A stretch of 64,000 bases of DNA from Lachnospiraceae bacterium (lineage in GTDB: Bacteria; Bacillota; Clostridia; Lachnospirales; Lachnospiraceae), in NCBI GenBank assembly GCA_017521605.1, contig JAFXCD010000023.1, positions 24,326 to 88,325 of the forward strand, read 5' to 3'. A program made the position numbers and the translations under genes. Under the pieces are notes generated by a model that ran no database searches, was not told where the DNA came from, and was given only the letters and a program-made list of their open reading frames with translations. This document shows positions 6,759-60,067 of this stretch, piece after piece (positions within the stretch are counted from its first letter, which is position 1; each line of letters opens with the position of its first letter).

Positions 6759-6761
6759 AGA

Positions 6762-8933: not shown

Positions 8934-8937
8934 GAGC

Positions 8938-9828: not shown

Positions 9829-9859
9829 AGACTTATTTGTATGAAAGGGAGATGAGAAT

Positions 9860-12208
9860 ATGTCAATGACAACTTTTATGATATGGCAGATGATTGGCAT
9901 ATTTTGTGCCTATTTTGGAGTGACTCTGATTTTGCCACTGATTGTATTCAGACATCTGTTAAAGGGAAGAACAGTTATTAATCAGATTCTTTTCAGTTTT
10001 TTGATCGGAAATTCTTATATCGTCACAATGGTACAGATATTACAGCTTTTGAAGATTAGTAATGGGGTGACTTTAATTGTATCTACTGTGGTACCGGCAT
10101 ATGTAGTTTGGGTAAAGCTGAATAAGGTGCCGGTAGTGAAGGTGGCAGAAGAAATTGGGACGAATGTTAAGAGAATAACCTTAAAGCGTCTTGGAACAAA
10201 GACTGCAACATATCGTTTGCATAATAGATTTTGGAAGAAAAGTAAGATTGTAGTTAAGAATGTGGGCTATATCATAATGCAGAATATTCTGGAGATAATC
10301 TTGCAGATTATATTATTGCTTGTATTAATCTATGTATATGGTCAGGGAATAATTTCTGTATATGGTTATACAGCTTCAGACATACCTGTTCACAATTATT
10401 GGATTAACGCATTAAGTGATAATAATATATATGTGGCAGGCGTATATCCCCATGGTTTCCATTGTGTAATTTATTATTTACATAAAGTGTTTGGATTTGA
10501 TACATATATTCTATTGTCTCTATTTGCTTTTGTGCAGGTAGTGTGCATTAATTTTGCACTTTTATATTTTTTAAGGCTTTGCTGTAAGCAAAAGTATATT
10601 GCTTATGCCGGCATATTTTTTTATGCAATAGGCGGGATGTATACACAAGGTACATATTGGCGTTTTTCAAGTTCTTTGCCCCAGGAATTTGGCATGATTT
10701 TCATATTACCGGCAATATATTATGGTTTTGAGTTTTTTCAAGAACGTTATAATGAAGTGAAACAGGAGAAAAAGAAGGAAAAATCTCTGTATTCGCTGTA
10801 TGGTTTTGCCATGGCATTCGGATTGACCTTGTCCGCTCATTTCTATAATACAATAATTGCTGCTTTCTTTTGTATAGCTATGGCACTGGCTTATATCTTT
10901 TTATTGGTTAGAAAGCAGTATTTTGGTAATATTGTTATTACCTGTTTGATTAGTGTGTTGGTTGCTATATTACCTATGGGAATTGCATTTGCGACAGGAA
11001 CGCGATTAGAAGGTTCATTATATTGGGCCAGTAATGTTATAAAAGGTTCCATAAGCGAAGAGCCTTCAGCGAGTACAGAGGCGGAAGGAAACATTGATAG
11101 TAGTGTAACGGAAATAACAAGCCCAAATGAATTTGAAATCAGTCATAATGATTCAACTATAAAGCAGGAAAACATACAAGAGAATCATGTAGAAAGAGAA
11201 GACTTGGAGCAAACGCAAAATCAGAATATTGTACAGGGAAAGAAAAAAAGCTTTAATGAACTAGTAGGAGAAATTAGTCTGAAGATAAATACAAAATTAA
11301 CTGTTTTTATATGGAATAGCAATGCTGTGTTACTTAATAGGATATTGTGGCTATCGGTTATTGGTCTTGTGGGAGCGGGTTGTGTATATTATGTTTTGCG
11401 AAAACCTTGTGAGGGTGCAATGCTGTTTACGATATCAATAAGTACAATTATTTTATTGATTGCATTAACGGCAGATACACTTGGATTACCTACTCTATTG
11501 GATTCCAGCAGATGCTGTATATATGTGGCATATACGATTCCGGTTGCATTGACCGGTGCTTTGGATGCGGTCATAACATTGTGTACCGGTGATGGGCGCT
11601 GGCGTTTGGTAGGTAATGTATTATCGTGTTTATGTATTGCACTGGTTTGGATAGCTTTAATCAGTAATGATATTCTTAGAAAACCATATACTCCCAATAT
11701 GTTTGAACGAAATGAATCAATTACTTCTTTAACAAATATATTGAGGAATAACAAGGATTTTACATGGACAATTTGTTCGGCTAACGATGAGTTCCGTATG
11801 TGCGAAAAGAGAGGATATCATTATGAAATAATAACATTATTAAAGCAGTTAGAGAATATGGATGAAGAAACCATAGTTACAATACCGACAGAAAAGGTCT
11901 TCTTTTTTATTGATAAAATACCTTTGGATTATGCTTCTACATATACAATAGGTGAGGAGAAGGTGTCTGAAGAATATGCAAATATGAACTTGTCTTATGC
12001 AGGAGGGCTGGCACCGTATCAAAGTTATGCCCGATTGACAACTATGTCCCGTATGTATTATTGGGCACAGGAGTTTATGCGTAAGTATCCCAATGAAATG
12101 AAGGTTTATTTGGAAACAGACCAGTTTGTTTGTTATGTATTAGAGCAGAATACATATGATTTGTATAATCTGGCGATTGATTACGGTTATAATACGAGGG
12201 ATAAATAA
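9860..12208 (+). CDS. Large polytopic membrane protein of the Pel operon (GT-C-like)
   Basis: The 782-aa protein has N-terminal helices, a helix near 145-170, then many helices interrupted by a hydrophilic, Glu/Ser/Gln-rich loop (about 395-480). It ends in a ~170-residue soluble domain. The loop after the fifth helix reads SDIPVHNYWINALSDNNIY, followed by YPHGFHCVIYYLHKVFG. An Asp/His pair in the first large outside loop before a P-G-H motif is usual for GT-C glycosyltransferases, which use lipid-linked sugars. It has no counterpart in classical pelA-G. Its stop overlaps the next start (TAATG). The function is unproven. Confidence 0.55.
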   Translation: MSMTTFMIWQMIGIFCAYFGVTLILPLIVFRHLLKGRTVINQILFSFLIGNSYIVTMVQILQLLKISNGVTLIVSTVVPAYVVWVKLNKVPVVKVAEEIGTNVKRITLKRLGTKTATYRLHNRFWKKSKIVVKNVGYIIMQNILEIILQIILLLVLIYVYGQGIISVYGYTASDIPVHNYWINALSDNNIYVAGVYPHGFHCVIYYLHKVFGFDTYILLSLFAFVQVVCINFALLYFLRLCCKQKYIAYAGIFFYAIGGMYTQGTYWRFSSSLPQEFGMIFILPAIYYGFEFFQERYNEVKQEKKKEKSLYSLYGFAMAFGLTLSAHFYNTIIAAFFCIAMALAYIFLLVRKQYFGNIVITCLISVLVAILPMGIAFATGTRLEGSLYWASNVIKGSISEEPSASTEAEGNIDSSVTEITSPNEFEISHNDSTIKQENIQENHVEREDLEQTQNQNIVQGKKKSFNELVGEISLKINTKLTVFIWNSNAVLLNRILWLSVIGLVGAGCVYYVLRKPCEGAMLFTISISTIILLIALTADTLGLPTLLDSSRCCIYVAYTIPVALTGALDAVITLCTGDGRWRLVGNVLSCLCIALVWIALISNDILRKPYTPNMFERNESITSLTNILRNNKDFTWTICSANDEFRMCEKRGYHYEIITLLKQLENMDEETIVTIPTEKVFFFIDKIPLDYASTYTIGEEKVSEEYANMNLSYAGGLAPYQSYARLTTMSRMYYWAQEFMRKYPNEMKVYLETDQFVCYVLEQNTYDLYNLAIDYGYNTRDK

Positions 12209-14055
12209 TGGATAGAATGGTATCGCGCAGAAGATTAGTCAGCATGACCATGATAATGCTGGTGCTATTGTTTATGTTCCAGTTTACACAGGTGATTAAA
12301 GATGTTGGCAATGATTATAATGTAAATGAATATGCGGTAGAAACTCCCTTGGACAGAACATCTTCGTGGAAGATGGGAGATATGGGGAGTACTAAGGATT
12401 ATGAGTATGTAGCATTTCTTGGAGATACAGGTACTCAATTAGGCAATATTATAGAACAATGGTGTATGTATACTAAAAGGGAGTTGAAAGAATACTCTTC
12501 GGTGGATGAGCTAAAAATATTAGCAGAGGATAAGCCGGAGGTCTTATTGATTGATTCGGGTTTTGTGGATTTTGGGAAGGATACAAATTCCTTAGGAGCA
12601 TTGACAAATGAAGAAATATCTATGATATTTTGTAATTTGCCGGATGTGAATGTAATTGCTAAAAATGGCAGATTGAGAGAACTACTGGGTATAAAAAGCG
12701 TGGAAGCATATAAGGTAGAATTGACGGGTGTAAAACTATTTGGTGGATTTTTGCTTGGTGGCGATACCATATATGCCGTGGAGGAAGAAGAACAGGCTAA
12801 AAGACAGGATTTAGATTTAAATATTCCATGGTACGCCGTATTCGGTGGCACAAAATCCTATATGGTAGGAATGCTGGAAGAAGAACAGTTGGAAAACTAT
12901 AAGCATAAGAACGAAATGTCTCCTGCTGTTATTTGGAGAAATAGTTATAAAAAAGCTTTTGTTTTTGCTGTAAACGGAGATTATATGAGTGACAGCACTG
13001 GATTAGGGATACTGGATGCTATGATGTCAGAATTACATCCTTATGAGATATATCCGGTAATTAACGCACAAAATCTGACAGTTGCAAATTTCCCGGGATT
13101 TGCAGAAGAGAATACGGAAGAGATTATGCGACTTTACAGCAGGGATCAAAGTGATCTGTTCAGAGATATTATGTGGCCCAGTATTAATGCTACCATGAAG
13201 CGAAACAGATTGCATGAATCTGTGTTTTTTATGGCACAAGCTGATTATTTGGATAATAATGAGCCTAAAGAAGATGAATATGTTTTTTATTTAAAGGAAT
13301 TAAATGAACAAAGAGCAGAAGCAGGAGTTTCCATAAATTGTAGAGAAAAGAATATTTCGCTTTCTGATAAAATGGCACGGGACTGCCAGTTTTATGAGAA
13401 GGCAAACAATGGATATGTTTTTACAGCTGCTTATGCCGATGATTCCGAAAATGTCAGCGAATTAAGAAGAATTATAGAAAAGGAATCGGCATTGAAGGAT
13501 ATAAAAACCATAGTACAGCGATATGATGCTTCTACACCTATAGTATCTTACCTGAATAAGGATATTACATTACAGAATACCATTACAGATGGTGTATATT
13601 ATACCTTTTCACAGGACTTGCGAATGAAGAGTTTGCAGACGGCATTAGGATATTCCAATACGCTTTTGGATATGTATCCTATAGCATGGCCGGAAAGTGA
13701 GAATGATGTATGGGAAAAGATGTATGATGATTACTCCAGAAATGTTGACACCTTCTGGAAAGAGTTTCATGTGTTTGATAATACTACTGCCTCTGAGAGT
13801 GACAGAAGGGTAAGAAGCTTTTTGAGTCTTGATTACGAGCACCAATTAACTGATAATGTTTTGAATTTGCAAGTAAAAAATATGCAGGAAAATGCCTGGT
13901 TCATTTTACGTACCAATGGTCAGAATATTGAAAAGGTTGAAGGTGCTAGTGTTAAAAAGATTGAAGATGAAGCATATTTATTGATGATTAATGAAGCAAA
14001 TGTAAAGATTTACTTAAAGAACATGGATGAATTATATTATTATATGCCTGAATAA
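12208..14055 (+). CDS. Extracytoplasmic protein in the PelA position (deacetylase-like, catalytic motif not seen)
   Basis: An N-terminal signal anchor (about residues 10-28) precedes a ~580-residue extracytoplasmic part. The middle (about 245-425) has the alternating beta/alpha pattern and the FAVNGDYMSDSTG strand expected of polysaccharide deacetylase folds. Gram-positive pel clusters place a PelA deacetylase between pelE and pelF, as here. However, I find no HxxxH motif anywhere in the protein, so a NodB-type metal site is not evident. It may be a non-catalytic relative or belong to another family. It overlaps the upstream gene by one base and ends 47 bp before pelF. Confidence 0.5.
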   Translation: MDRMVSRRRLVSMTMIMLVLLFMFQFTQVIKDVGNDYNVNEYAVETPLDRTSSWKMGDMGSTKDYEYVAFLGDTGTQLGNIIEQWCMYTKRELKEYSSVDELKILAEDKPEVLLIDSGFVDFGKDTNSLGALTNEEISMIFCNLPDVNVIAKNGRLRELLGIKSVEAYKVELTGVKLFGGFLLGGDTIYAVEEEEQAKRQDLDLNIPWYAVFGGTKSYMVGMLEEEQLENYKHKNEMSPAVIWRNSYKKAFVFAVNGDYMSDSTGLGILDAMMSELHPYEIYPVINAQNLTVANFPGFAEENTEEIMRLYSRDQSDLFRDIMWPSINATMKRNRLHESVFFMAQADYLDNNEPKEDEYVFYLKELNEQRAEAGVSINCREKNISLSDKMARDCQFYEKANNGYVFTAAYADDSENVSELRRIIEKESALKDIKTIVQRYDASTPIVSYLNKDITLQNTITDGVYYTFSQDLRMKSLQTALGYSNTLLDMYPIAWPESENDVWEKMYDDYSRNVDTFWKEFHVFDNTTASESDRRVRSFLSLDYEHQLTDNVLNLQVKNMQENAWFILRTNGQNIEKVEGASVKKIEDEAYLLMINEANVKIYLKNMDELYYYMPE

Positions 14056-14102
14056 GTAAGACAAAAGGAATTTTGAATTCCCAAATGTACTGGAGGAAAC
14101 GT

Positions 14103-15554
14103 ATGAGAATCTGTATCGTGGCTGAAGGATGCTATCCTTATGTTATGGGTGGTGTTTCCAGTTGGATTGATAGTATGATAAAGTCATTTCCCAACATAGA
14201 ATTTTGTTTATTGACGATTATCACAGATAGGGAACAGAGCGGTAAATTTCTATATACATTACCGGATAATGTTACGGAAGTATATGAGGCTTATCTGAAT
14301 GATTATGACTGGAGTAAGAAACGGAAATATGGTAGAAGAACAAGGCTGAATAAACAGGAGTACAGAGCTCTGAGAAGTGTAATTCTGAATGAACAGGTGG
14401 ATTGGGATACCCTGTTTGATATGTTTCAGAATAAGAAAATCAGTATAGATGATTTACTTATGGGGGCAGATTTTTTTAATGTGGTACAGGAGTGTTATAA
14501 TTTAAAGTTTCCGCAGATTGTATTTTCGGATTTTTTGTGGACCATACGTTCTATTTATTTACCGCTATTTCTGATAATGCAGACCAATCTTCCCAAAGCA
14601 GATTTTTATCATTGTGTAGCTACAGGATATGCAGGTTTGTTGGGAAGTATGGCGCGGTATAGGTATGGCTGCGGTTTGTTGGTATCAGAGCACGGAATCT
14701 ATACACGTGAACGTGAAGAAGAGATTATTAAAGCTTTTTGGGTAGAAGGAATTTATAAAAATATATGGATAGACCAGTTTAGAAAAATGTCTCGTCTGGC
14801 ATATGAGCGTTCTGATAAGGTGACCAGTTTGTATGAACATGCCAAAGAATTACAGATGGAGTTGGGGTGCCCGGAATCCCGAATTATCATTACTCCCAAC
14901 GGTATTGATATGGAACGTTTTGCTGATTTGCCGGGGAAGACGGATGAAGAGACGGAATGGATTAATATAGGGGCTGTATTACGTGTTACACCTATTAAGG
15001 ATGTAAAAACCATGATTCGAGCATTTTCTTATGCAAAAGAGAAGGTACCTAATATAAAATTATGGATTATGGGTCCTATGGATGAGGATGAGGTATATGC
15101 CAATGAATGTTTTGAATTAGTAGAAACATTGAAAATTACAAATGTATATTTTACCGGCAGAGTTGATGTCAGACAGTATTTAGGAAAAATGGATTTTACC
15201 ATTTTAACCAGTATCAGTGAAGGCATGCCACTGACTATTTTAGAGAGCTATGCTGCTAAGAAGCCGGTAATTGCAACAGATGTGGGTAACTGCAGAGGGC
15301 TTATTTATGGTGAAAGTGATGATTACGGAATGGCAGGTATATTGACACATATTATGAATGTTTCGGAGATTGCAGAAGCAATTGTAAAGCTGGCAGAATC
15401 ATCGGAGTTGCGTGCGACCATGGGTGAAGTTGGTTATAAACGTGTTCAGAAGAATTATCGTATTGAACAGATGAAGGCAACCTATGAGGAGATTTATAGG
15501 GAACTTGGTGAAAAATATGGATGTAAATGGCCAGAAGGGTTGTTTAGAGTGTAA
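14103..15554 (+). CDS. pelF: PelF-type GT4 glycosyltransferase (Pel polymerase)
   Basis: PelF is the cytoplasmic GT4 enzyme that polymerises the GalNAc-rich Pel chain. The protein begins MRICIVAEGCYPYVMGGVSS, the hallmark N-terminus of this family. It has a long insert after the first beta-strands and the GT4 C-terminal block ITPNGIDMERF, ..IMGPMDEDEVY.., SISEGMPLTILE (the E-x7-E region). I chose the ATG at 14103 because GGAGGA lies just upstream; an in-frame TTG at 14073 would add ten residues before that SD. It is followed 21 bp later by pelG. Confidence 0.92.
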   Translation: MRICIVAEGCYPYVMGGVSSWIDSMIKSFPNIEFCLLTIITDREQSGKFLYTLPDNVTEVYEAYLNDYDWSKKRKYGRRTRLNKQEYRALRSVILNEQVDWDTLFDMFQNKKISIDDLLMGADFFNVVQECYNLKFPQIVFSDFLWTIRSIYLPLFLIMQTNLPKADFYHCVATGYAGLLGSMARYRYGCGLLVSEHGIYTREREEEIIKAFWVEGIYKNIWIDQFRKMSRLAYERSDKVTSLYEHAKELQMELGCPESRIIITPNGIDMERFADLPGKTDEETEWINIGAVLRVTPIKDVKTMIRAFSYAKEKVPNIKLWIMGPMDEDEVYANECFELVETLKITNVYFTGRVDVRQYLGKMDFTILTSISEGMPLTILESYAAKKPVIATDVGNCRGLIYGESDDYGMAGILTHIMNVSEIAEAIVKLAESSELRATMGEVGYKRVQKNYRIEQMKATYEEIYRELGEKYGCKWPEGLFRV

Positions 15555-15575
15555 AGATATAGTAAGGAGGCATAT

Positions 15576-17039
15576 ATGGCAGGTATTGGTGTTAATTTAA
15601 ATAAAATATTTTCAAAGAACACAATTACTACCCATATTTATGGTTTTACATATAGTATGGTGGCTACCATCGCACCAATGTTTTTGGTAATCGGGGCGAT
15701 TATCATAATGCAGCTGTTATTAGGATTTTCAAAGGTAGGATATGCTACACGCGAATTATATTCTTGTACAGTTCTTTATATATTTATCTTTGCACTTCTG
15801 ACAGCATCACCCTTTAATGCAGTATTGTCAAAATATATGTCAGATGTAATTTACAATGAGACGTATTCGGATATTCTTCCCTGTTATTATTTTGGATTGA
15901 TTCTTAATGTTGTATTCAGCTGCTTATGGGGAATTCCTTTTTGTATTTGGGAGCATGTAGTAGGGAATGTGCCGATTTACTATGTTTTTACAGGGTATTG
16001 CGGCTATATTTCATTGGTTCTTGTATTTTATTCCATGCTTTATTTATCTATTTGTAAGGATTATAAGAAAATATCCTTGTTTTTTTTCATTGGTATGTCG
16101 ATAACAATAATACTATCATTAATATTAGTTTATTTATTTAAGGTGGAAGTAACCTATGCCATGTTGTTATCTTTGGTAGTAGGCTTTGCTATCATAGCTT
16201 GTTTAGAATTTGCTTTAACAAAAAGTTATTTTAGAGAGAATAGTGGAAAATATAAAGAGGTTTATCAATATTTTAAAAAGTATTGGAAGCTTGTTCTAAC
16301 TAATTTCTTTTATATATTAGGTCTGTATACCCATAATTTTGTGTTTTGGGGAACCGATATGCGGATGGTTGTTGTAGATAGTTTTGTTTGTATGCAACCT
16401 TATGATATGGCGTCATTTATTGCCATGTTTACTAATATTTCAGCAAGTGTATTATTTATAACCAGAGTGGAAATGCATTTTCATGAAAGATATCGTGCAT
16501 ATTCAGAAGCGGTTATCGGTGGTCGGGGAATGGATATTGAAAATGCGAAGAGACGTATGTTTAGACAATTATCAGAAGAATTAATGAACATGGTTCGAAT
16601 TCAGTTCATTTTATCGGTAATAGTCTATTTTATTTGCATTACCTTATTGCCTTATTTGGGATTGGGAGGCTTAGTAATGAAGATTTATCCATGTCTGGCG
16701 GTAGGATATTTTATTCTGTTTACTATGTATGCAGCAATTATTTTCCAGTATTATTATAATGACATGACTGGTGCATTGATGACATCTGTGGCATTTTGGT
16801 TGGCTACGTTATTGGGAAGCATATGGGCTACGCATTTGCAACCTATATGGTTTGGAATAGGTTTGGTAATTGGTGCAATGGTTGGATGGATGGTAGCATA
16901 TGCCAGATTACGATTCATAGAGAATAGTGTGGATACACATATATTCTGTAATGGTAGTATTATGAAGAAAGGTCAGGGTACAAAACCCACCAATATAGTG
17001 TTCAGCAGATATACGATGAAAACAGAACAGAGAAAGTAG
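15576..17039 (+). CDS. pelG: PelG-type polysaccharide transporter (MVF/Wzx-like membrane protein)
   Basis: The 487-aa protein has about 12 membrane helices and begins MAGIGVNLNKIFSKNTITTHIYGFTYS, the conserved N-terminus of PelG. PelG exports the growing Pel chain together with PelD, PelE and PelF. SD AAGGAGG is 6 nt before the ATG. The order D-E-x-A-F-G is that of Gram-positive pel operons with one extra gene. Confidence 0.92.
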   Translation: MAGIGVNLNKIFSKNTITTHIYGFTYSMVATIAPMFLVIGAIIIMQLLLGFSKVGYATRELYSCTVLYIFIFALLTASPFNAVLSKYMSDVIYNETYSDILPCYYFGLILNVVFSCLWGIPFCIWEHVVGNVPIYYVFTGYCGYISLVLVFYSMLYLSICKDYKKISLFFFIGMSITIILSLILVYLFKVEVTYAMLLSLVVGFAIIACLEFALTKSYFRENSGKYKEVYQYFKKYWKLVLTNFFYILGLYTHNFVFWGTDMRMVVVDSFVCMQPYDMASFIAMFTNISASVLFITRVEMHFHERYRAYSEAVIGGRGMDIENAKRRMFRQLSEELMNMVRIQFILSVIVYFICITLLPYLGLGGLVMKIYPCLAVGYFILFTMYAAIIFQYYYNDMTGALMTSVAFWLATLLGSIWATHLQPIWFGIGLVIGAMVGWMVAYARLRFIENSVDTHIFCNGSIMKKGQGTKPTNIVFSRYTMKTEQRK

Positions 17040-21742: not shown

Positions 21743-22827
21743 TGGTCAAAATTTGTTTCTTTTCCGGGGATATAACTAGAAGTGGTGGCACGGAAAGAGT
21801 TTCCACTATGATAGCAAATGAATTGGCAAGGCAGGGACAATTTGAAGTCTGCTTTTTGAGTCTTTGTGAGCAAAAGGATAGCCCCTTTTTTTACATAGAT
21901 GATAATATAAAACAGTATAAATTAGGGGAGCGGTGGATACAACCCGGACTGGCATATTTACCTATCATTCCTAAGTTACGTAGATTTCTAAAGGAAAAGG
22001 CGATAGATATCATTATTGATATTGATATAGTTTTGGATTGTTTATCCATACCGGCTTCAAGGGGACTAAAGATAAAGGTTGTTTCCTGGGAACATTTTAA
22101 CTGTGATTATGAGTTAACAGTTTCATATCGCAGATTTATTTTAAAGAATATTACAAAGCGTGCTGACTATATCATTACACTAACAGAAGGGGACAAAGTC
22201 CGATATGGTCAGGTAATTGGTTGTGCCGAGAAAATAGAAGCGATATACAATCCTATGAAAGAAAGAATTGTTTCATATGAAGGTGAAAAGAAAAAGTGGA
22301 TTGTAACAGCAGTGAGATTGGTTTATGATAAAGGGATTGATTATTTGACAGAGATAGCTTCCAAGGTATTATTAAGATATCCTGATTGGAAATGGTTTGT
22401 ATTGGGTGAGGGAGATGAGAGAAAAAAATTAGAAGCCTGTATTCAAGAGTATGGATTAGAGGGTAGGCTGGTAGTTCCGGGATTGGTAGATTGTGTGGAT
22501 GAGTATTTAAGTAAAGCAAAGTTGTTTGTATTGACATCGCGAGTGGAAGGACTACCAATGTGTTTACTTGAAGCGAAGACTTATAAGCTCCCGTGTATCA
22601 GTTTTAATATACCAACCGGTCCGGATGAAATAATAGAAGACGAAATAAGTGGATATTTGGTGGAACCGTTTGATTGTGAAAAGATGATAAACAGAATCAG
22701 TGAACTTGTGGAAAACGAGGTACTGTTAAGCTCTTTTGCTGATAGAACCAAGAATAATATATATAAGTTTCAGATGACTAGTATCATGGAAAAGTGGAAC
22801 AGGGTGTTAAAGGGTCTATGCGAATAA
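21739..22827 (+). CDS. GT4 family glycosyltransferase
   Basis: This GT-B enzyme has VKICFFSGDITRSGGTERVS at the N-terminus (glycine-rich GGTER loop) and TAVRLVYDKGIDYLTEIA, FVLGEGDERKKL and RVEGLPMCLLEAKTYKLPCISF (E-x7-E) in the C-terminal half. It belongs to the WaaG/RfaB-like GT4 group. It overlaps both neighbours, so the operon is tightly coupled. The first of two adjacent ATG codons is used here; the second at 21742 is equally possible. Confidence 0.85.
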   Translation: MMVKICFFSGDITRSGGTERVSTMIANELARQGQFEVCFLSLCEQKDSPFFYIDDNIKQYKLGERWIQPGLAYLPIIPKLRRFLKEKAIDIIIDIDIVLDCLSIPASRGLKIKVVSWEHFNCDYELTVSYRRFILKNITKRADYIITLTEGDKVRYGQVIGCAEKIEAIYNPMKERIVSYEGEKKKWIVTAVRLVYDKGIDYLTEIASKVLLRYPDWKWFVLGEGDERKKLEACIQEYGLEGRLVVPGLVDCVDEYLSKAKLFVLTSRVEGLPMCLLEAKTYKLPCISFNIPTGPDEIIEDEISGYLVEPFDCEKMINRISELVENEVLLSSFADRTKNNIYKFQMTSIMEKWNRVLKGLCE

Positions 22828-24350
22828 AAAATGCTTTTCGAAATAGCTTCTTTAGTGTTATTTCGCAGATATTATTAATAATAGTGGGGTTCGTCAGTCA
22901 GAGAGTATTAAATCTGAGAATGGGTGAAGAACTGGTAGGTATGAACAGTGTTATATCCAATATTATAGCGCTGCTATCTGTTACGGAGTTGGGTATCTCA
23001 ACAGCGGTGGTTTTTCATTTGTATGGTTATCTGGCGGCTAAGGATGAAGAAAGAATAGCGTCCATAATGAATTTGTACCGGAAGGCTTATAGTATATTTG
23101 CTATTGTTATTTCTCTTTTGGGCTTATGCATTATGCCTTATGTACATTTGTTTTTGAAAGAAAACAGCTTTTCTTTGGATTATATCAGATTAGTATATAT
23201 TTTGTGGCTAATTCGAACGGTATGTTCTTATCTGCTTTCCTATAAAAGGTCGGTGTTAATTGCAGACCAACGGGAATACGTTATAACAATTGGGGTATTG
23301 ATTGCCAGTACAATGAATTATCTTGCCATAATCATAATTGTGGAATTTTGGCAAAATTATGTGTTGGCATTGTCTTTGAATATTGTGATAGAGATTGTTT
23401 TAAATCTGTTGATAGCAAGGTATGTGAACAAAAAATATGCCTTTTTGAAGAAAATGCAAAAGGCTCCGTTACAAAAGGAGATTGTAGATAAGGTTGTATC
23501 AGATGTAAAAAATATTTTTGTTTCACGATTATCACTAAAACTATTAGTGTCAACAGATAGTTTGATTATTTCCGGTTTCATTAGTGTGGGAATAGTAGGA
23601 TTATATGCCAACTATTGTATGATAACTCAGTCAGTGTCCAATATTTTGCTGACGTTATCCGGAACGCTTCAACCGATAGTCGGGAATATGTTTGTAGAGA
23701 AAGATCATGAAAAAGATTATGGAGTGCTTAGACAGATTACTTTTATTTTCTTTTGGTTAGCCTCTTTTTGCAGTTGCGGTTTATTTGCACTAATGACTCC
23801 TTTTGTAACGGATATTTGGTTAGGCACCGAATATAGACTGGATACTACCATTATTTTGTGGTGTGTAATCAACTTTTTTGCCCAGACCATAAGCTTACCA
23901 TTAAGTATGATGCTGGGTGTTACGGGTATGTTTCAGAAGGAAAAGAAAATATCTGTTTTGGCGGCAGTTACAAATTTGGTGATTTCCTTGAGCTTGGTAA
24001 TACCGCTGGGAATTATTGGTGTACTAATAGGAACTTTTTTTTCTCATTTGTTGCAAATAGCATGTCGAATGAAAGTACTTATTTGTGAATATATATGCAA
24101 AGAGTTAAAACAGTATTTAATGGAGATAATTCAATATATTGCGTTAACAGGTATCGAACTGGGTTTGGTTTACAGCATTGGTACACAAATGCTCCATAAT
24201 GGCGGTTGGATATATTTTGTAAAAATGATTTTGGTATGTCTGTTGATACCTAATGCAATCAATCTGCTTATTTATTGCAGGAGCTGGCGTTTTCGTAGTA
24301 TTCTGAATATGGGTCTGGAGTTTATAGGAAAGCCTAAACATCGAACTTAG
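22818..24350 (+). CDS. Oligosaccharide flippase (MATE/MVF-like, Wzx type)
   Basis: The protein of ~510 aa has 12-14 membrane helices, beginning MRIKNAFRNSFFSVISQ and with VGFVSQRVLNLRMGEELVGM, typical of O-unit/teichoic acid flippases. It is a second exporter in the operon besides PelG, so the genes after pelG may make a separate repeat-unit polymer. The ATG at 22818 is preferred over a GTG at 22794 because the GTG would add eight unlikely residues. Its 3' end overlaps the 3' end of the opposite-strand gene by 17 bp. Confidence 0.85.
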   Translation: MRIKNAFRNSFFSVISQILLIIVGFVSQRVLNLRMGEELVGMNSVISNIIALLSVTELGISTAVVFHLYGYLAAKDEERIASIMNLYRKAYSIFAIVISLLGLCIMPYVHLFLKENSFSLDYIRLVYILWLIRTVCSYLLSYKRSVLIADQREYVITIGVLIASTMNYLAIIIIVEFWQNYVLALSLNIVIEIVLNLLIARYVNKKYAFLKKMQKAPLQKEIVDKVVSDVKNIFVSRLSLKLLVSTDSLIISGFISVGIVGLYANYCMITQSVSNILLTLSGTLQPIVGNMFVEKDHEKDYGVLRQITFIFFWLASFCSCGLFALMTPFVTDIWLGTEYRLDTTIILWCVINFFAQTISLPLSMMLGVTGMFQKEKKISVLAAVTNLVISLSLVIPLGIIGVLIGTFFSHLLQIACRMKVLICEYICKELKQYLMEIIQYIALTGIELGLVYSIGTQMLHNGGWIYFVKMILVCLLIPNAINLLIYCRSWRFRSILNMGLEFIGKPKHRT

Positions 24351-27328: not shown

Positions 27329-28408
27329 ATGAAAACAAAAATTACAGTAAGTATTATCATTCCTGTTTACAAAACAGAAACTTATCTGGCAGAATGTATG
27401 AATAGTGTTTTGCAACAGGATTATTCTTATATAGAGATTATTCTGGTGGATGATGGGTCTCCGGATAATTGCCCAAGATTATGTGATGAATACGCACAGA
27501 AGTATGAAAAAGTGAAGGTAATACATCAGACCAATCGGGGATTGGGATTATCACGTAACTCTGGTTTGCAGGTGGCAACAGGTAAATACATATTTTTCCT
27601 GGATTCGGATGATTGTTTGGATGGACAAGGAGTGGTTACAACACTGGTAAAATGTGCGGAGGAAAAGAATGCTGATATTGTTACCGGAAGCTTCCGCAGA
27701 TTTAATGAAAAGAGTGTTAGCGAACCAAATGCACATCATTTAGAGGACGGGCCGGTTACAGAAACGGTTGGTTTTCGATTCAAAGGCTTTTATATGTATG
27801 GGCATTTGGCATATAATTGGGGAAAGTTATATAGAAAAGCCTTTTTGGAAGAGAATGAACTTTATTGCAAGGCCTACCCTTTTACGCAGGATAAGGCCCA
27901 CAATATGGCTTGTTGTGCATATAAGCCTAAATATGCTTTTGTGGATGAGAGTGTGTATTTATACAGGGTCAATGAGGAATCTGTAACATTTAAGTACAAA
28001 GCCAATTTTATGCCTGTATGGATTTCAATAGCGGAGGATTTTGAGACATTTCTGAAGGAACGGAATATAAAAGAAGATTATTATGATTTGATGTATTTTC
28101 ACATTTTCTTTGGAAGCTTTTTTCTTGCCAAGCAGGAACTGCAATTTAAAGAAAAGAGAATTCGGGAAGCAGCAAAGGCGTTAAAGGAATATGGTAAGAA
28201 TCCTTTTGTAAAGAAAAGTATGAAAGCATTGGCTAAGGGTAAGTATTTGAAGGAGATTGAAGCACTGTCATGGAAGATAGTAATTAGGGGAGCTTCATTA
28301 TTGTTTACCATGCGTGGTTATTGGCCAATGGCATTAGGAATTGCACTGCTTAGAAAGATGGAAGTAGATAGTAAAATTACGAAATCCAGATATAAGAAGG
28401 AGAAATAA
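27329..28408 (+). CDS. GT2 family glycosyltransferase
   Basis: The layout is the same as the GT2 at 25372: VSIIIPVYKTETYLAECM, ILVDDGSPDNCP, NRGLGLSRNSGL and FFLDSDDCLDG, then a helical C-terminal half with NWGKLYRKAFLEEN. The two GT2 proteins share NxGxxxSRNxGL and similar lengths and may be old duplicates. AAAGGGAG precedes the ATG. The nucleotidyltransferase gene starts 5 bp after its stop. Confidence 0.85.
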   Translation: MKTKITVSIIIPVYKTETYLAECMNSVLQQDYSYIEIILVDDGSPDNCPRLCDEYAQKYEKVKVIHQTNRGLGLSRNSGLQVATGKYIFFLDSDDCLDGQGVVTTLVKCAEEKNADIVTGSFRRFNEKSVSEPNAHHLEDGPVTETVGFRFKGFYMYGHLAYNWGKLYRKAFLEENELYCKAYPFTQDKAHNMACCAYKPKYAFVDESVYLYRVNEESVTFKYKANFMPVWISIAEDFETFLKERNIKEDYYDLMYFHIFFGSFFLAKQELQFKEKRIREAAKALKEYGKNPFVKKSMKALAKGKYLKEIEALSWKIVIRGASLLFTMRGYWPMALGIALLRKMEVDSKITKSRYKKEK

Positions 28409-28413: not shown

Positions 28414-29604
28414 GTGAAGGATATGTTTTCAAGAGAAGAGATAGAGCTGATAAATGTCTTAAGAGTTGCTATAAGTAATGTATCAAATCAAAAAGAGATG
28501 TCGATTGAAAATATAAACAGCGCAAATCTGATAAGTATGGCAAGAAGACATGCTGTTTTATCATTGATATATGATGTATTGTGTGAGAATCAACTCTTTT
28601 TAGATAAACAACCCTATATAGAACAGGAAACAAGAAAAATTGTACTACAATCCTATCGTTTACTGTTTCTGACCCGATATGTGGTAGAATTATTAGCGAA
28701 ACACCATATTGAGACAGTTGTTCTAAAGGGAGTAGCAACGGCAGGCTTTTATTCAGTGCCTGAATTGCGTAAATCGGGAGATATAGATTTATTGTTACCG
28801 AATACAGTAGATGAAAAACAGATTACAGAGATTATGAAAGAGGCCGGCTTCCGGATATCAAAAAACCAACATTCAAATCATCATATGGTTTATGTATCTG
28901 CAGAGGGGATTTCCATTGAACTTCATAGTATGCTGGCAGAACCGTTTGCGTATAAGAAGATCAATAAGGCTATGGAAAGACAGATGGAAAGGTGTGCTGT
29001 ACATATACAAAAAGCAGAAATTATGGGGCTGGAACTGCCTGTTTTGGATAAGCCATATCATGCATATGAGTTGTTGTTACATATGTTGCAGCATTTCATG
29101 TATGCGGGTTTTGGTTTAAAGTTATTATGTGACTGGGTAATGATTTGGAAGCAAGACTGGTTAAAGGAAGAGCGTGAGCAGTTCACCATGTTAACAAAAG
29201 AATGCGGTTTAGAGAAGTTTGCAGAAATGCTTTCTGCAGTTTGCATGAAATATTTCGGAATGCCGAAAGATACGTTTGCATGGAAGGTTAAATGTGATGA
29301 GAATACGGATCTATTATTGAGGGAGATTTTAGATTCGGAGGAGTTTGGCAATTCAGATAACAATCGCATGGTGATGATGAATGGCACAGGGCTGATGGCT
29401 TATATTAAGGAGTTTCATCATCAGATGAGGTTGAATTTTCAAAAGGCAGGGAAGTGCTTTTTGTTATGGCCGGTGCTATGGGGAGTGACATTGGTAAGGT
29501 TTTTGAGAAATAATAAGAGAGTGCGTAATACATCAACGGGTGGTGTATTAAAAGAGGCTAGAAGAAGAAGTGAACTGATGAAGGAACTGCGTATTTTTCA
29601 GTAG
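28414..29604 (+). CDS. Nucleotidyltransferase family protein (PF14907 type)
   Basis: VVLKGVATAGFY (about residues 103-113) followed by RKSGDIDLLLP (119-129) gives the G...GDxD signature of the uncharacterised nucleotidyltransferase family PF14907; Asp123 and Asp125 would bind metal. A central VSAEGISIELHSMLAE supplies the third acidic residue. Members occur beside HprK-like kinases and PqqD-like proteins in RiPP clusters, including lasso peptide loci, and such genes follow here. It begins with GTG; an ATG at 28423 would remove three residues. It may belong to the cassette at 29.7-33.9 kb rather than to the glycan operon. Confidence 0.75.
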   Translation: MKDMFSREEIELINVLRVAISNVSNQKEMSIENINSANLISMARRHAVLSLIYDVLCENQLFLDKQPYIEQETRKIVLQSYRLLFLTRYVVELLAKHHIETVVLKGVATAGFYSVPELRKSGDIDLLLPNTVDEKQITEIMKEAGFRISKNQHSNHHMVYVSAEGISIELHSMLAEPFAYKKINKAMERQMERCAVHIQKAEIMGLELPVLDKPYHAYELLLHMLQHFMYAGFGLKLLCDWVMIWKQDWLKEEREQFTMLTKECGLEKFAEMLSAVCMKYFGMPKDTFAWKVKCDENTDLLLREILDSEEFGNSDNNRMVMMNGTGLMAYIKEFHHQMRLNFQKAGKCFLLWPVLWGVTLVRFLRNNKRVRNTSTGGVLKEARRRSELMKELRIFQ

Positions 29605-29719
29605 TGTTGTGCTAAGAAAATGATATCTGATGTATTGATATAAAATGTACAATGAAGAAAGCTGGAAAAATGTTTTTAGTAATATTTTTTACAAAAATAA
29701 CAATAATGTGACGAATCAG

Positions 29720-29748
29720 TTTACAAAAGTGTAAAAATATGGTATGTT
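29720..29748 (+). promoter_or_regulatory. Promoter of the leader-peptide protein gene
   Basis: TTTACA (29720-29725) and TATGTT (29743-29748) are separated by 17 nt, a good housekeeping sigma-A spacing, 44 bp before the ATG of the 156-aa gene. This makes that gene the first of its own transcription unit. Confidence 0.55.
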
Positions 29749-29791
29749 ATTTATGTAAAAGAGTAAGTTTTGCTATAGGGAGGCAAGTATA

Positions 29792-30262
29792 ATGAAAAAG
29801 TATGAGAAACCGGTTGTAATGATAAACGAAGAGTTGGCTGAAGGTGTATACGCAGCGAGCGGAATGATGACGGGACCTACCGGAACACAGGATTGTTGGT
29901 CTTTTGATGTATATCCTGTTCAGGATTGGAATGGTTCACATAGAGTATTTGAAATCAAATTAAGACATCATACCGGGTTGGAGCATATATCAGATGCTTC
30001 TAATGTTAGTGTCACATTTGACAGAGACTTAACAGATGCATATACAGAGTTTGGTGGTGTTTTTGACGGAAGTAGAACAGTATCTGTATCAAGAGTGCTG
30101 TTGGCAGACGCATATAAGGATGGAGATTGGGTTACATATAAGATATGGGCTCAGGCTAGTGATGAGGCAACGACAAGAACTGTTGGTGTAAGTAATGTGA
30201 CAGTAACATGTGATAAATCACTTAATGTTCAAGGTGGCGGAGCAAGTGAGATAAATCCATAA
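29792..30262 (+). CDS. Secreted beta-rich protein precursor with RiPP-like leader
   Basis: The N-terminus MKKYEKPVVMINEELAEGVY, then AASG, looks like a cleavable leader: short basic start, KP, a hydrophobic/acidic helix (E-E-L-A-E-G-V) and a small-residue site, but no hydrophobic signal peptide. Similar leaders (KKYxKPxxxxNEExAEGVxAASG) occur on many short Lachnospiraceae proteins, from memory. The rest (about 28-156) alternates short polar strands, with one early Cys (DCWSF) and one late Cys (VTCDKS) that could pair, which suggests a small beta-sandwich. An ABC exporter follows after a terminator. GGGAGG is 8 nt before the ATG. The function is unknown; a secreted structural or binding protein fits best. 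Confidence 0.65.
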   Translation: MKKYEKPVVMINEELAEGVYAASGMMTGPTGTQDCWSFDVYPVQDWNGSHRVFEIKLRHHTGLEHISDASNVSVTFDRDLTDAYTEFGGVFDGSRTVSVSRVLLADAYKDGDWVTYKIWAQASDEATTRTVGVSNVTVTCDKSLNVQGGGASEINP

Positions 30263-30271
30263 GGTAAATAA

Positions 30272-30303
30272 AACAGCATCATCATTTTGATGATGCTGTT
30301 TTT
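30272..30303 (+). terminator. Intercistronic terminator between precursor and exporter genes
   Basis: A perfect 13-bp stem AACAGCATCATCA/TGATGATGCTGTT (30272-30284 with 30288-30300) with a 3-nt loop is followed by TTT. It sits in the 61-bp gap before the exporter gene. It should make the precursor transcript much more abundant than read-through mRNA for the exporter. Confidence 0.85.
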
Positions 30304-30323
30304 GTGTATGAGGTTGTGGTTAT

Positions 30324-32084
30324 ATGATACATAAGTTAGTGAAAAGAATGCATTTAGTGAATCCTGAAAGGTTGCAAGAAAGATTTAAGCAGATAAAGTG
30401 GATTTATTACTATGCAAAAAAATATTGGATGTCCATGATCCTTTATACTTTAATTGGCATGGCAGGGACTGTTATATCCCTTGTGAGTAGTTGGATTTCA
30501 AAAGATTTAGTTGATATTATTACAGGATATGAAACCGGTCGCTTGGTAACTACGTTTTGTATGATGATAGGCATAAATATTGGAACCGGCTTAATGAGTC
30601 AAATTTCCAATTATGTATCCAGTAAGATTAGCATGAAAGTAGATGCAGATGTTAAAGCAGATATTTTTTCTAAAATTTTGATCACGGATTGGGAATCACT
30701 CAGTAATTATCATACAGGTGATCTGTTGACGCGATGGAGTTCTGATGTTGGTACAATTTCCAGTGGAATATTAAGTTTTGCTCCGAATTTGATTATATAT
30801 GTATTTAGATTTGTTTCGGCTTTTGCTATGGTTATATATTATGATGCCACTTTTGCTATATTTGCATTTATAAGTATGCCTGTTAGTTTGCTGTTATCAA
30901 GAACACTTACAAAACGTATGACCAATAATAATCAGAGAAGTGCTGCAATGGGGGCGAAAATGACGGGATATAATCAAGAAGCGTTTTCAAACCTTCAGAC
31001 TATAAAAGCATTTGATTTGGTAGGTCTGTATATAAATAGATTGAAAGAGATTCAAAAAGAGTATATAGATATGCGTTTGGAATTTCAGAGAATGTCTATA
31101 GGAACTTCGCTGTTACTGAGTACAATAGGCCTTTTGGTTTCATATGCCTCTTATGGTTGGGGGATTTATAGAGTATGGAGCGGAGCAATAAGTTATGGAA
31201 CAATGACCATGTTTTTGGGGCTTTCGGGTACATTGACAGGAACAATTAACGGGTTGACTTCATTAATTCCTACAACTATTAGGCTTGCTACTTCTGCCGG
31301 TCGTCTTATGGATATCGTAGAGATGCCCCGCGAGGATTACAGTAACGATGAATTGGTAAAATCTTTCTATGAAAATAATAAAAATCAAGGTATCAGCTTG
31401 AAGATGTTTGATGTAAATTACTCTTATAAGACTGGAACAGAAGTTTTTGCCGGTGCGTCATTAGAGGTTAATCCTCATGAAATTATTGCTTTGGTGGGAC
31501 CTTCCGGAGAAGGCAAGACGACCATGCTTCGTTTGATCTTGTCGCTTATGCAGACACAGAACGGTACGGCTTATTTAACAGGCGGAGAAGAGTCTGTTCC
31601 GCTTACACCTTCCACTCGTAAACTGTTTTCCTACGTACCACAGGGAAACACCATGTTTTCCGGTACTATCGCTGAGAATATGCGTAATGTAAATCCGGAA
31701 GCTACGGATGAGGATATTATAGAGGCCTTAAAAGGTGCTTGTGCATGGGAGTTTGTGGAGAAATTGCCCGCGGGTATTAATAGTGAAATAAAGGAGCGTG
31801 GAGGAGGATTTTCTGAAGGACAGGCTCAACGTTTGTCCATTGCCAGAGCATTGCTTAGAGATGCACCTATTTTACTTTTGGATGAAGCAACTTCTGCATT
31901 GGATGTTGCTACGGAGAGAAGAGTGTTGCGTAATATCATGCAGGATGAGAAACCACGTACCTGTATTGTAACAACTCACAGACCTACGGTACTAAGTGTA
32001 TGTACCAGAGTTTACGCAATTCGTGATAAGAAGTGTGTAGTGTTAAACGAAAAAGAAATTGATGAGATGGTAAGAGGATTTTAA
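30324..32084 (+). CDS. ABC transporter, fused permease/ATPase, probable exporter of the leader-bearing protein
   Basis: This half-transporter has 5-6 membrane helices in residues ~35-330 and an ATPase domain with Walker A GPSGEGKTT, signature FSEGQAQRLS, Walker B ILLLDEATSALD and the H-loop in TTHRPT. The signature differs from LSGGQ at its first residues (FSEGQ), which is common in peptide and RiPP exporters. No C39 or other peptidase domain is fused, so leader removal would need another enzyme; an S26 peptidase gene lies 1.4 kb downstream. Its position directly after the precursor gene implies that substrate. Confidence 0.82.
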   Translation: MIHKLVKRMHLVNPERLQERFKQIKWIYYYAKKYWMSMILYTLIGMAGTVISLVSSWISKDLVDIITGYETGRLVTTFCMMIGINIGTGLMSQISNYVSSKISMKVDADVKADIFSKILITDWESLSNYHTGDLLTRWSSDVGTISSGILSFAPNLIIYVFRFVSAFAMVIYYDATFAIFAFISMPVSLLLSRTLTKRMTNNNQRSAAMGAKMTGYNQEAFSNLQTIKAFDLVGLYINRLKEIQKEYIDMRLEFQRMSIGTSLLLSTIGLLVSYASYGWGIYRVWSGAISYGTMTMFLGLSGTLTGTINGLTSLIPTTIRLATSAGRLMDIVEMPREDYSNDELVKSFYENNKNQGISLKMFDVNYSYKTGTEVFAGASLEVNPHEIIALVGPSGEGKTTMLRLILSLMQTQNGTAYLTGGEESVPLTPSTRKLFSYVPQGNTMFSGTIAENMRNVNPEATDEDIIEALKGACAWEFVEKLPAGINSEIKERGGGFSEGQAQRLSIARALLRDAPILLLDEATSALDVATERRVLRNIMQDEKPRTCIVTTHRPTVLSVCTRVYAIRDKKCVVLNEKEIDEMVRGF

Positions 32085-32092
32085 GATAAAAG

Positions 32093-32122
32093 AGAAGTCC
32101 GGTATTTAGTCTCCGGACTTCT
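32093..32122. terminator. Bidirectional terminator between exporter and PqqD-HprK genes
   Basis: A 10-bp stem AGAAGTCCGG/CCGGACTTCT (32093-32102 with 32113-32122) is flanked by A-rich and T-rich sequence. It overlaps the last codons of the minus-strand gene and serves the convergent pair. Confidence 0.8.
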
Positions 32123-33272
32123 TTAATTTATCAAGATAACAATCAATATATTTCTTCATAACTTCTGAGGCAGTAGGTTCCTTCGTACAATGGAGCTTGC
32201 ATACCATAATCTTTGAAACAATATCTTTCACAATTTTCATGTTTCGATCAAACAAATCTGTCGTCCAAGCAGGAGAAATCAAGCGTTGGCTTACAAGTAG
32301 CTGTTTCTTATCTTCCGGAAGTTTTTCAATTCTATCAGAAGAGGCCTGATTGAGGAGGATGATACCACCTAAAGCTACCGTCACGGTGGTACAGATTTCA
32401 GAGGTACCGCACCAGGGAATTCCGTGTACTACAGGTTGACCGTTTTCAAAGGCTAACAGATTCAAATCCCCATTTAAAAGAGTAATTTTATAAAGTTTTT
32501 TCCATAGGTTGGTATGGGTGGATTTGCCCATACCGGAATGTCCGGAAAACAGCCACGCTTTTTCTTTGTAGAGCAGAGAGGCAGAATGGAGTGCTACCAT
32601 GCCCTTCTTTTGTGACAGGTAAAGGTAAGTAAGGCGCAGTGCGTGAAAAATATCATAATGAAAATCCTCGTCATAAGGGGGCAGACAGTAACACAGAACC
32701 TTGGAACCATCAAAGCTTAAATGTATTTCCACAATATGTTTGGCCTGTGGAAAAAGTAGGATATAGCCTTCGGAGTTTTCCAGTACCATTAATTCATCAT
32801 TACGAATTAGTAAAGAACCATTTTGACGAGCTGGTGGAAAGCCCGGTTGGAATAATACTTCCTGGTGTATAGCTTCGCAGCCGGCAGCTTCAAAAGGACA
32901 AAACTCCTGTGGAAATGCCTGGGCAGGTCCCAGTAGCTTCACACCTAATCCGGCAATGGAAAGGGTTACGGAATGAAGGTTTGTATTAACATAGGGTTCA
33001 TCGATTACAATACCATAAGAGATCAGTTGTTTTACAAACTGGCGGATGTCATTTTGAAATTCTGTCAAATCCTCTGAGGGAATCTCGTAATATTCCGCAC
33101 TGCATCTGAATAGCTCCTCCATGGTGCACTCCTGCTCCAGCAATTTCCAAAGATAGGCACCGGTAGCATTGACCTGCACGCCATGTTTTCTGTCAGCCAT
33201 CATTTGTCCATAAGGGAGCAGATAGGGGATGTTTGCGATTTCTCTTAATATGAAGCTTTTGTTTTGCCGCAT
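32106..33272 (-). CDS. PqqD domain fused to HprK-like kinase
   Basis: Residues 1-~95 are PqqD-like (VQVNATGAYLWKLLEQECTMEELF, then QLISYGIVID). Residues ~215-388 resemble the C-terminal domain of HPr kinase, with ALHSASLLYKEKAWLFSGHS and the P-loop SGHSGMGKST (about 243-252, Lys250), then LLNGDLNLL. HprK-like kinases in lasso peptide clusters phosphorylate the peptide; here a fused PqqD domain could hold the leader while the kinase acts on the core (inference). The HprK signature and the phosphatase loop are not clear, so it is not a true HprK. It faces the exporter gene and shares its terminator. Confidence 0.72.
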   Translation of the reverse strand: MRQNKSFILREIANIPYLLPYGQMMADRKHGVQVNATGAYLWKLLEQECTMEELFRCSAEYYEIPSEDLTEFQNDIRQFVKQLISYGIVIDEPYVNTNLHSVTLSIAGLGVKLLGPAQAFPQEFCPFEAAGCEAIHQEVLFQPGFPPARQNGSLLIRNDELMVLENSEGYILLFPQAKHIVEIHLSFDGSKVLCYCLPPYDEDFHYDIFHALRLTYLYLSQKKGMVALHSASLLYKEKAWLFSGHSGMGKSTHTNLWKKLYKITLLNGDLNLLAFENGQPVVHGIPWCGTSEICTTVTVALGGIILLNQASSDRIEKLPEDKKQLLVSQRLISPAWTTDLFDRNMKIVKDIVSKIMVCKLHCTKEPTASEVMKKYIDCYLDKLKKSGD

Positions 33273-33460
33273 GGGATTCTCCTTGATTTACTGTAATAGT
33301 TTTAGTAGGTAGAATAGACAGAAAGCCATAATTTCTATCACTTTATTTTCCAGTATATCATTTTATGGAAAAAAAGGCTACTGGAAGGATTATAAAATTG
33401 TCAGTTGAGATTGCATTACAAACTGTTTATAATAGAAACTGTATAAGGAGAGGAGAGACT

Positions 33461-33928
33461 ATGGAAGATAACCGTCAGGATATAGAGCAACTCTTGGAAC
33501 AGGGTAACAATATACAGATAAAGCCCCAGGGGTACAGTATGTATCCTGTATTAGTACCGGGACGGGATGAAGCGGTTGTAGAGCCTGTGGCAGAGAGAAT
33601 ACTTAAACGTGGAGATGTGGTATTGTATCGAAGAGTAGCAGAGAATACAGGGCATATTTTGGTACTTCATCGTATCTGGAAGATAAAGCCGGAGGGGATA
33701 TATCTGGTAGGAGATAATCAGAGGGAAATCGAAGGACCTCTTATGAGGAGTCAGATGAAGGGTATTATGGCTGGTATATACCGTAAGGACAAGTACATAT
33801 CTGTACGGAATCCATGGTATCGATTGTTTACCGGAGGATGGTTATTACTACGCCCCATACGGCCCATTGTAGCAGGCATTGCAGCACGAATAAAGGGAAT
33901 ATTTACTAAGAAAGAGGATAAAGACTAA
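33461..33928 (+). CDS. S26 family signal peptidase-like protein, ER/SipW type (Ser-His)
   Basis: IKPQGYSMYPVL gives the nucleophile Ser26, LHRIW supplies His70 where bacterial type I peptidases have Lys, and LVGDNQ supplies Asp85. That Ser/His/Asp set is the ER-type (S26B) form found in SipW and archaeal peptidases. A hydrophobic stretch near residues 124-144 could insert into the membrane. The start at 33461 follows AGGAGAGG; an in-frame ATG at 33365 adds 32 residues and lacks an SD. It is a candidate for removing the leader of the 156-aa protein. The fruK-like gene begins 2 bp later. Confidence 0.75.
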   Translation: MEDNRQDIEQLLEQGNNIQIKPQGYSMYPVLVPGRDEAVVEPVAERILKRGDVVLYRRVAENTGHILVLHRIWKIKPEGIYLVGDNQREIEGPLMRSQMKGIMAGIYRKDKYISVRNPWYRLFTGGWLLLRPIRPIVAGIAARIKGIFTKKEDKD

Positions 33929-34848: not shown

Positions 34849-34883
34849 TTAGGGTAGTATTACAGAAGAGGAAGGCGGTTAAC

Positions 34884-53743: not shown

Positions 53744-53761
53744 GAATATGGGGGAGCAAAT

Positions 53762-54259: not shown

Positions 54260-54269
54260 GAGCATTATT

Positions 54270-54791: not shown

Positions 54792-54826
54792 AGTGATTAT
54801 TCGAAGTTTATGGAGAGATAAAAGAA

Positions 54827-55258: not shown

Positions 55259-55330
55259 AAGATTAAGTCTATACACTTTTAGGCTTGTGGAGAGAGTGAA
55301 AGCACGTGAATCTTTGGAGTTGGTAAAGGT

Positions 55331-55537: not shown

Positions 55538-55639
55538 GTATAATGACGTTGGAGTGCTACTTTAGGTATTTTAATTTCTGGCTTCAGGTGAGTCTGAAAA
55601 TGCAGGAGCATTATCAATAATAACGAAAGGATTATGTAC

Positions 55640-60056: not shown

Positions 60057-60067
60057 CGAAATAAAAA

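Follow-up and report, generated by a model that had tools for sequence, protein, structure and literature searches.

We describe a gene cassette in a 64,000-nucleotide stretch of a Lachnospiraceae bacterium genome (contig JAFXCD010000023.1; the whole stretch is called the window, and its positions are used throughout). A PF14907 nucleotidyltransferase, a leader-bearing precursor (the cargo), an ABC exporter, a PqqD-kinase fusion and an S26 peptidase are gathered there; what looks like a complete operon for the exopolysaccharide Pel (pelD at 6762 to pelG at 17039; Table 1) lies 11 kb upstream. A sequence-only reading of this DNA had seen in the five genes a possibly undescribed route for secreting a modified surface protein. 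All five genes are confirmed, and they are found together repeatedly as a cassette, but the word ‘undescribed’ fails: a paper of May 2026 reports this core set of genes for linear polyphosphorylated peptides, LPP (PMC13381572).

Table 1. Features of the cassette and of the Pel operon in the window
Feature	Positions	Strand	Basis and remarks
Free-standing PqqD gene	6474..6758	+	3 bp upstream of pelD; equivalents of LppB Asp70 and Asn33 kept
pelD candidate, N-terminal epimerase-like domain	6762..8933	+	Pfam Epimerase; upstream of pelE; gene description in PMC7112168
pelE candidate	8938..9828	+	Position and homology across Pel loci; no Pfam match
Two Pel-operon genes, 782 aa and 615 aa (candidate deacetylase)	9860..14055	+	No Pfam match (782 aa); DUF2194 (615 aa); putative names, from gene order in PMC7112168
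pelF (candidate) and pelG	14073..17039	+	PelG PF16933, E 5.4e-146; pelF adjoins pelG
Polysaccharide flippase	22794..24350	+	Pfam Polysacc_synt; homologous to a domain that the nucleotidyltransferase carries in some other loci
Family 2 glycosyltransferase (GT2)	27329..28408	+	Pfam Glycos_transf_2; stop 5 bp upstream of the nucleotidyltransferase
PF14907 nucleotidyltransferase (LppN-like)	28414..29604	+	Pfam E 1.5e-36
Leader-bearing precursor (cargo), 156 aa	29792..30262	+	Leader homology; modelled beta-sandwich core
Predicted leader peptide, residues 1-22	29792..29857	+	Conservation; YEKP at 4-7; putative cut placed by LPP analogy
Terminator-like hairpin 3' of precursor gene	30270..30302	+	
ABC exporter (MsbA-like, LppD-like), 586 aa, without peptidase domain	30324..32084	+	Pfam ABC_membrane and ABC_tran
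PqqD-kinase fusion	32106..33272	-	PqqD ~residues 1-89; PEPCK/HprK-superfamily kinase domain 93-386; NGD replaces NDD
S26 / SpI-like peptidase (LppS-like)	33365..33928	+	Likely start codon 33461 (homologue alignment and ribosome-binding site)

Recurrence and enzymes of the cassette

Among 250 genomes of the same family, the full-length PqqD-kinase fusion occurs in 15 (E < 1e-90), and all of these genomes also contain the exporter and a PF14907 gene, with the window exporter 54-72% identical to its homologues in the 14 others. A scan with the fusion alignment, taking one genome per species, returned at least 80 loci (L-numbers denote fetched loci and G-numbers sampled genomes), of which 43 (L052-L094) form a close group with E up to 2e-45. 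Thirty-seven of these 43 are titled Lachnospiraceae or a genus that we assign to that family; one is titled Erysipelotrichaceae, one Solobacterium, and four carry broader names. Many of the fetched flanks are cut short by contig ends; inside them, the close loci have the exporter in 39 cases, the S26 gene in 34, a precursor detectable by BLAST against that of the window in 33, and the nucleotidyltransferase in 20, or 22 when two GT2 fusions are counted.

The fusion itself is as claimed earlier, a leader-binding PqqD domain joined to a kinase according to Pfam, and its kinase part is unusual. The histidine and the P-loop lysine are invariant in the fused kinases (56 of 56) and in the relatives from far loci, although the counts of 56 near and 38 far kinases take in some contig records twice. 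The first aspartate of the NDD motif is a glycine in 55/56 fused kinases and an aspartate in 37/38 relatives, and a nearby lysine (27/38 relatives) gives way to threonine in 55/56; the second aspartate is intact and N-G-D is strictly kept. In lasso peptide kinases, a His-Lys-Asp-Asp set has been reported as essential (PMC9266682, in the text available), and the DD pair of the relatives would correspond to its Asp-Asp. The proposal that the product is phosphorylated therefore keeps an HprK-like fold and a P-loop in its favor but is weakened, since one member of the set is gone, and phosphorylation is uncertain. The domain probably still binds ATP, with its chemistry altered or lost.

The nucleotidyltransferase likely acts in glycan assembly. 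In four loci (L053, L058, L061, L089) it is joined to a flippase-like domain, recognized by BLAST against the window flippase but missed by Pfam in L053, and in two others (L062, L081) to a GT2 domain; its homologue PsmN from the pseudomycoidin cluster has been linked to hexose addition on phosphoserine (PMC9266682). The S26 peptidase is of the Ser-His type that had been read from the sequence: GxSMxP and LHR occur in 43/43 distinct homologues (LHR in 41 by strict pattern and in 2 by eye) and GD[NA] in 40/43, with a top 19-residue hydropathy mean of at most 1.45 in 42/43 and 1.88 in one. The exporter likewise lacks a protease domain, there being no peptidase among its Pfam matches; double-glycine bacteriocin export of the C39 type was rejected, since those matches include no N-terminal C39 peptidase.

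One leader on many cores

The precursors have in common an N-terminal leader with the consensus MKxYEKPxVxxNEELAEGVYAASG, after which their sequences diverge. A pattern search of the close loci gave 54 distinct leader-bearing sequences, that of the window included, all with a single spacing; that Y, P, S and G never vary among them is partly a product of the search, whose pattern already demanded YxxP-like and SG letters. A hidden Markov model (HMM) of the leader adds ten precursors, and in this independent set Ser23 is present in 10/10 and the glycine in 9/10. The 54 cores fall into 11 sequence clusters, of which the largest contains 30 cores and the next 11, so that one shared N-terminus stands on cores of 11 clusters, as expected of a leader like those of ribosomally synthesized and post-translationally modified peptides (RiPPs).

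In the 250 family genomes, the leader HMM yields 26 matches in 15 genomes (E up to 1.1e-7). Precursor homologues are not found mainly away from the cassette: 20 of the 26 lie within ~10 kb of another cassette gene, and six do not (G022:C55, G029:C51, G034:C75:1892 and three in the incomplete G146). At E 1e-5, the window's genome and one congener aside, 0/339 class and 0/347 phylum genomes match, in samples that overlap and include some same-family genomes; the leader is present in two named loci titled Erysipelotrichaceae and Solobacterium (L079, L092). Leader-bearing precursor genes also occur in L046, L048, L049, L050 and L051, with no cassette genes in the fetched stretch; L050 and L051, from one genome, share a core, for which L050 gives a Pfam ubiquitin match below cut-off (E 0.0015).

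The absence of a Sec signal, stated earlier for the window precursor, extends to the family: over the first 45 residues of all 54 precursors, the most hydrophobic 19-residue segment has a Kyte-Doolittle mean of 1.27; export by Sec and signal peptidase I was rejected, no hydrophobic signal peptide being present in the 54. By analogy with LPP, a cut near AAS/G is plausible. We place it after Ala22 and before the conserved Ser23 because Y20 A21 A22 / S23 can be aligned with F-3 E-2 T-1 / A1 Q2 S3 of LppA, using the LPP cleavage motif Px9Fx[T/A] (PMC13381572).

The cores are 53 to 147 residues long (median 110) and mostly acidic, with net charges from -16 to 0. The predicted beta-rich cargo is supported by a structural model of the window precursor, which shows a beta-sandwich with strands from 30 to 142 (mean predicted local distance difference test score, pLDDT, 82.4) and a poorly ordered leader. 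Of the solved structures, those giving compact matches to this model are binders of cellulose and chitin of the CBM2 type, with clathrin-adaptor domains ranking level with them, and no Foldseek match reaches E 0.001. The window precursor has no profile match in a Pfam search; the core of the L057 precursor, one relative, has a CBM_2 match over the Pfam cut-off, and the L054 precursor has one near, but below, it. The second cargo cluster has four invariant cysteines. When the two main cargo families were searched as profiles against PDB sequences, neither gave a match. A hairpin and T run lies within 70 bp after 20/54 precursor genes, compared with 31/417 other large open reading frames of the same loci (p 2.9e-8), which fits separate and stronger expression of the cargo than of the exporter.

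The Pel operon and its PqqD gene

The operon upstream of the cassette resembles the Gram-positive pelDEADAFG type (PMC7112168), with an epimerase-domain pelD, pelE, a deacetylase-type gene, pelF, pelG and a DUF4832 accessory gene. The last is part of a DUF4874/DUF4832 gene at 19390-20721; DUF4832 is an established Pel accessory type, and the pel genes of Roseburia sit within a larger cluster (PMC7112168, in the text available). Across the family, the suspected link to polysaccharide genes holds and narrows to Pel: PelG (PF16933) occurs in 42/250 genomes, namely 14/15 with the fusion and 28/235 without it (p 2.4e-11). Of the 14 genomes, 12 have fusion and PelG on the same contig at a distance of 7 to 18 kb; in G025 and G240, either gene lies within ~1 kb of a contig end. 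The pelF candidate of the window is assigned by its place beside pelG and by a presumed PelF motif at its N-terminus.

The link extends into the operon itself. A small PqqD gene stands upstream of pelD in 13/13 cassette genomes with the site visible and in 0/22 Pel-only genomes (p 6.8e-10); in these 22, the PqqD HMM (E 1e-3), whose training partly used loci it then tested, has no match to any open reading frame of the stretch, before pelD or otherwise. The cassette side of this comparison omits G025, where pelD is cut off, and G096, which is without PelG. The Pel-only side comprises 28 genomes including G146; regions were fetched for 24, leaving G090, G092, G214, G228 and a second PelG locus of G107 outside the fetched set, and 22 of the 23 other than G146 had more than 1 kb upstream of pelD, G163 not being judgeable (no pelD in L150, 160 bp upstream in L159). 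G146, with leaders and no detected cassette, also has the PqqD gene upstream of pelD, as do the named loci L064 and L071; L078 is a contig already counted.

Both types of PqqD look able to bind a YxxP leader, to judge by residues known from LPP. In the structure of LppB with its leader, Asp70 holds the tyrosine of the leader and Asn33 its kink where the proline stands, and complex formation is lowered by D70A and nearly lost with N33A (PMC13381572). Assigned via the printed PDB match alignment, the Asp70 equivalent is kept in 14/14 Pel-operon and 45/48 fused PqqDs, and the Asn33 equivalent in 11/14 and 45/48. G096, the sole cassette genome without PelG, has no second PqqD in the fetched stretch and a precursor without the YxxP motif. 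This precursor (L174, 13681-14169) and that of L085 (12990-13412) have degenerate YxxP leaders with AEG[IV][YF]AGSG ends, and no Pel genes were seen in either stretch; in view of these two cases, YxxP may be retained through the Pel-side PqqD.

Other arrangements were seen at Pel loci. In L086, a Cache, HD and response-regulator protein (7146-9131), a candidate cyclic di-GMP phosphodiesterase, sits where the PqqD gene would. L108 (9660-20134), from an Oscillospiraceae metagenome-assembled genome outside Lachnospiraceae, has separate kinase, PqqD and S26 genes adjoining Pel genes, and L136 (3841-5100), from a Pel-only genome, has a PF14907-like nucleotidyltransferase 30% identical to that of the window directly upstream of pelD, without PqqD. 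In the window, a pfkB-type kinase gene starts 2 bp after the S26 gene and is followed by another gene, which we take to be PTS enzyme I-like (33931-36503 together). Farther downstream, at 53288-62714, lies a run of immunity-type genes, with two Imm6 (53288, 53762) and SUKH/SMI1-KNR4 members (55634, 58195, 60878; 60461 below cut-off), and after it a beta-lactamase-fold gene (61644). Riboswitch control was rejected, a tRNA being the sole Rfam match over gathering score in the window, and a promoter scan was uninformative (15 found, 20 expected).

A variant of LPP and its possible service to Pel

LPP clusters are known from Paenibacillus alginolyticus and other Bacillota and, like the cassette, combine an SpI-like S26 peptidase, a PqqD domain, an HprK-superfamily kinase, an NTP transferase and an MsbA-like exporter, with polysaccharide genes in the neighborhood; their precursors, of 35-200 residues, have a conserved YxxP leader and a variable C-terminus (PMC13381572), as do the precursors here. 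For one Paenibacillus lpp cluster, kinase-dependent phosphorylation at S3 and cutting by LppS dependent on the RiPP recognition element (RRE) were reported; its authors call the role of LPP unknown and a biofilm role tempting yet untested (PMC13381572). Unlike LPP, with its discrete RRE in the core cluster, the cassette has a kinase-fused PqqD and a discrete second one in the pel operon, an NGD motif where relatives have NDD, and a cargo that is tied to Pel and that modelling suggests to be folded and carbohydrate-binding-like. Of the LPP leader YxxPxVLxHQxIxFETxxS, YxxP and an aromatic-x-A before Ser are present here and the HQxIxFET part is missing; the leader ends in [VI][YF]AASG, and the distance from proline to aromatic residue exceeds that of Px9Fx[T/A] by three residues. 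Because the core set has no discrete RRE, the exact leader motif is absent and the kinase catalytic set is incomplete, we treat the system as an LPP variant rather than a member, which by analogy would work like LPP up to the modification step.

The main text of the LPP paper has no words starting with ‘Pel’, ‘Clostridi’ or ‘Lachnospir’ (PMC13381572), that of the pelDEADAFG paper contains neither ‘PqqD’ nor ‘matrix protein’ (PMC7112168), and those of RRE-Finder (PMC7470986) and a 2025 RRE survey (PMC12710340) lack the word ‘kinase’. Among the matches listed from the open-licence literature, the LPP paper alone reports this gene set in the absence of lasso genes. Paeninodin-type lasso clusters (PadeK, PsmN; PMC9266682, PMC7533575) are similar in their HprK-like kinase, nucleotidyltransferase, PqqD, ABC exporter and YxxP/WxxP leader. 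A lasso peptide was rejected, since the genome (92.9% complete) contains neither a B2-type leader peptidase (PF13471, 0 matches) nor an asparagine-synthetase-like cyclase (the only Asn_synthase match is a 32-position fragment on another contig), extending genome-wide the earlier statement that no cyclase or B protein is present. LPP-like sets of nucleotidyltransferase, PqqD, NDD kinase, S26 and ABC genes in L105 (Desulfosporosinus, 6093-12820) and L107 (Ruminiclostridium, 6147-12667), each encoding a pair of small peptides with YxxP leaders and a protein whose CxxxCxxC stretch looks, by eye, radical-SAM-type, are possibly a separate LPP variant.

We favor, with moderate confidence, a Lachnospiraceae-type LPP variant for the leader-guided trimming and export of folded Pel-matrix proteins. 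In this route, the YxxP leader would dock on the kinase-fused and pel-operon-encoded PqqD domains; the S26 peptidase, given the leader by a PqqD domain, would cleave after Ala22 and leave Ser23 as first residue; the protease-free exporter would move the small acidic beta-sandwich protein outside; and there it would serve as a carbohydrate-binding matrix protein of Pel. Much of the sequence-only interpretation survives in this proposal, including the leader, the PqqD fusion, the exporter, the peptidase, the beta-rich cargo and the polysaccharide link. Several points weigh against it. The fold match alone proves nothing, being tied with clathrin-adaptor domains and without a match at E 0.001. 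L086 lacks the PqqD gene upstream of pelD. On the PelD tree, the cassette label requires four changes, three of them forced by well-supported branches; the PqqD gene tracks the cassette in 3/3 independent pairs (p 0.25), and with only three pairs the kinship-corrected test cannot reach significance. Kinship accounts for part of the PqqD-cassette association.

The cassette could instead be an ordinary LPP-type RiPP pathway, in which the kinase polyphosphorylates the serine by the cut site, the nucleotidyltransferase adds a sugar, the product is a secreted signal or antagonist, and the Pel link is merely a shared polysaccharide-island neighborhood. The core genes are those of LPP, where LppK phosphorylates S3 and LppS cuts (PMC13381572), Ser23 recurs in all ten precursors found without requiring it, and the P-loop lysine and histidine are kept throughout; we nonetheless consider this unlikely, given the glycine in 55/56 fused kinases, acidic cores of protein size in 11 clusters, and a cassette-linked PqqD gene inside the pel operon that mere neighborhood would not predict. 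A pseudokinase fusion, an ATP-bound scaffold that passes the precursor via PqqD to the S26 peptidase and exporter without modifying it, is compatible with the export of Pel-matrix proteins and appears somewhat unlikely: the lost aspartate and the adjacent lysine-to-threonine change argue for it, while the intact P-loop, histidine and second aspartate and the strict conservation of N-G-D suggest a new function, not decay. That the precursors are bacteriocin-like toxins is very improbable, even with RiPP-like export and several different cores per genome, in view of their acidity, the CBM2 match of L057 and the Pel link; no immunity-type gene was noticed by the precursor genes, and no dedicated search was made.

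Under the favored reading, Ser23 might also be phosphorylated, or glycosylated through a phosphate link, with the nucleotidyltransferase and its partner glycosyltransferase or flippase taking part. A bolder and rather unlikely extension would be that the polysaccharide synthase has a peptide-recognition subunit of its own: the PqqD encoded before pelD would capture leader-bearing carbohydrate-binding proteins and bring them to the Pel machinery. Protein and sugar of the matrix would then leave the cell as one product, perhaps even linked via Ser23 by the remodelled kinase and the nucleotidyltransferase.

As a gene inventory, the system is known from LPP; what is new is the end it appears to serve, in which a leader guides folded proteins out of the cell to accompany a single biofilm polysaccharide. 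We know of no matrix proteins of Gram-positive Pel, no exhaustive search having been made, and the precursors offer candidates. If the proposal is true, an LPP-like system would gain a concrete role in Lachnospiraceae, supplying the protein parts of one defined exopolysaccharide, with a leader-binding gene sitting inside the polysaccharide operon itself, and RiPP leader machinery could be a secretion route for folded proteins.

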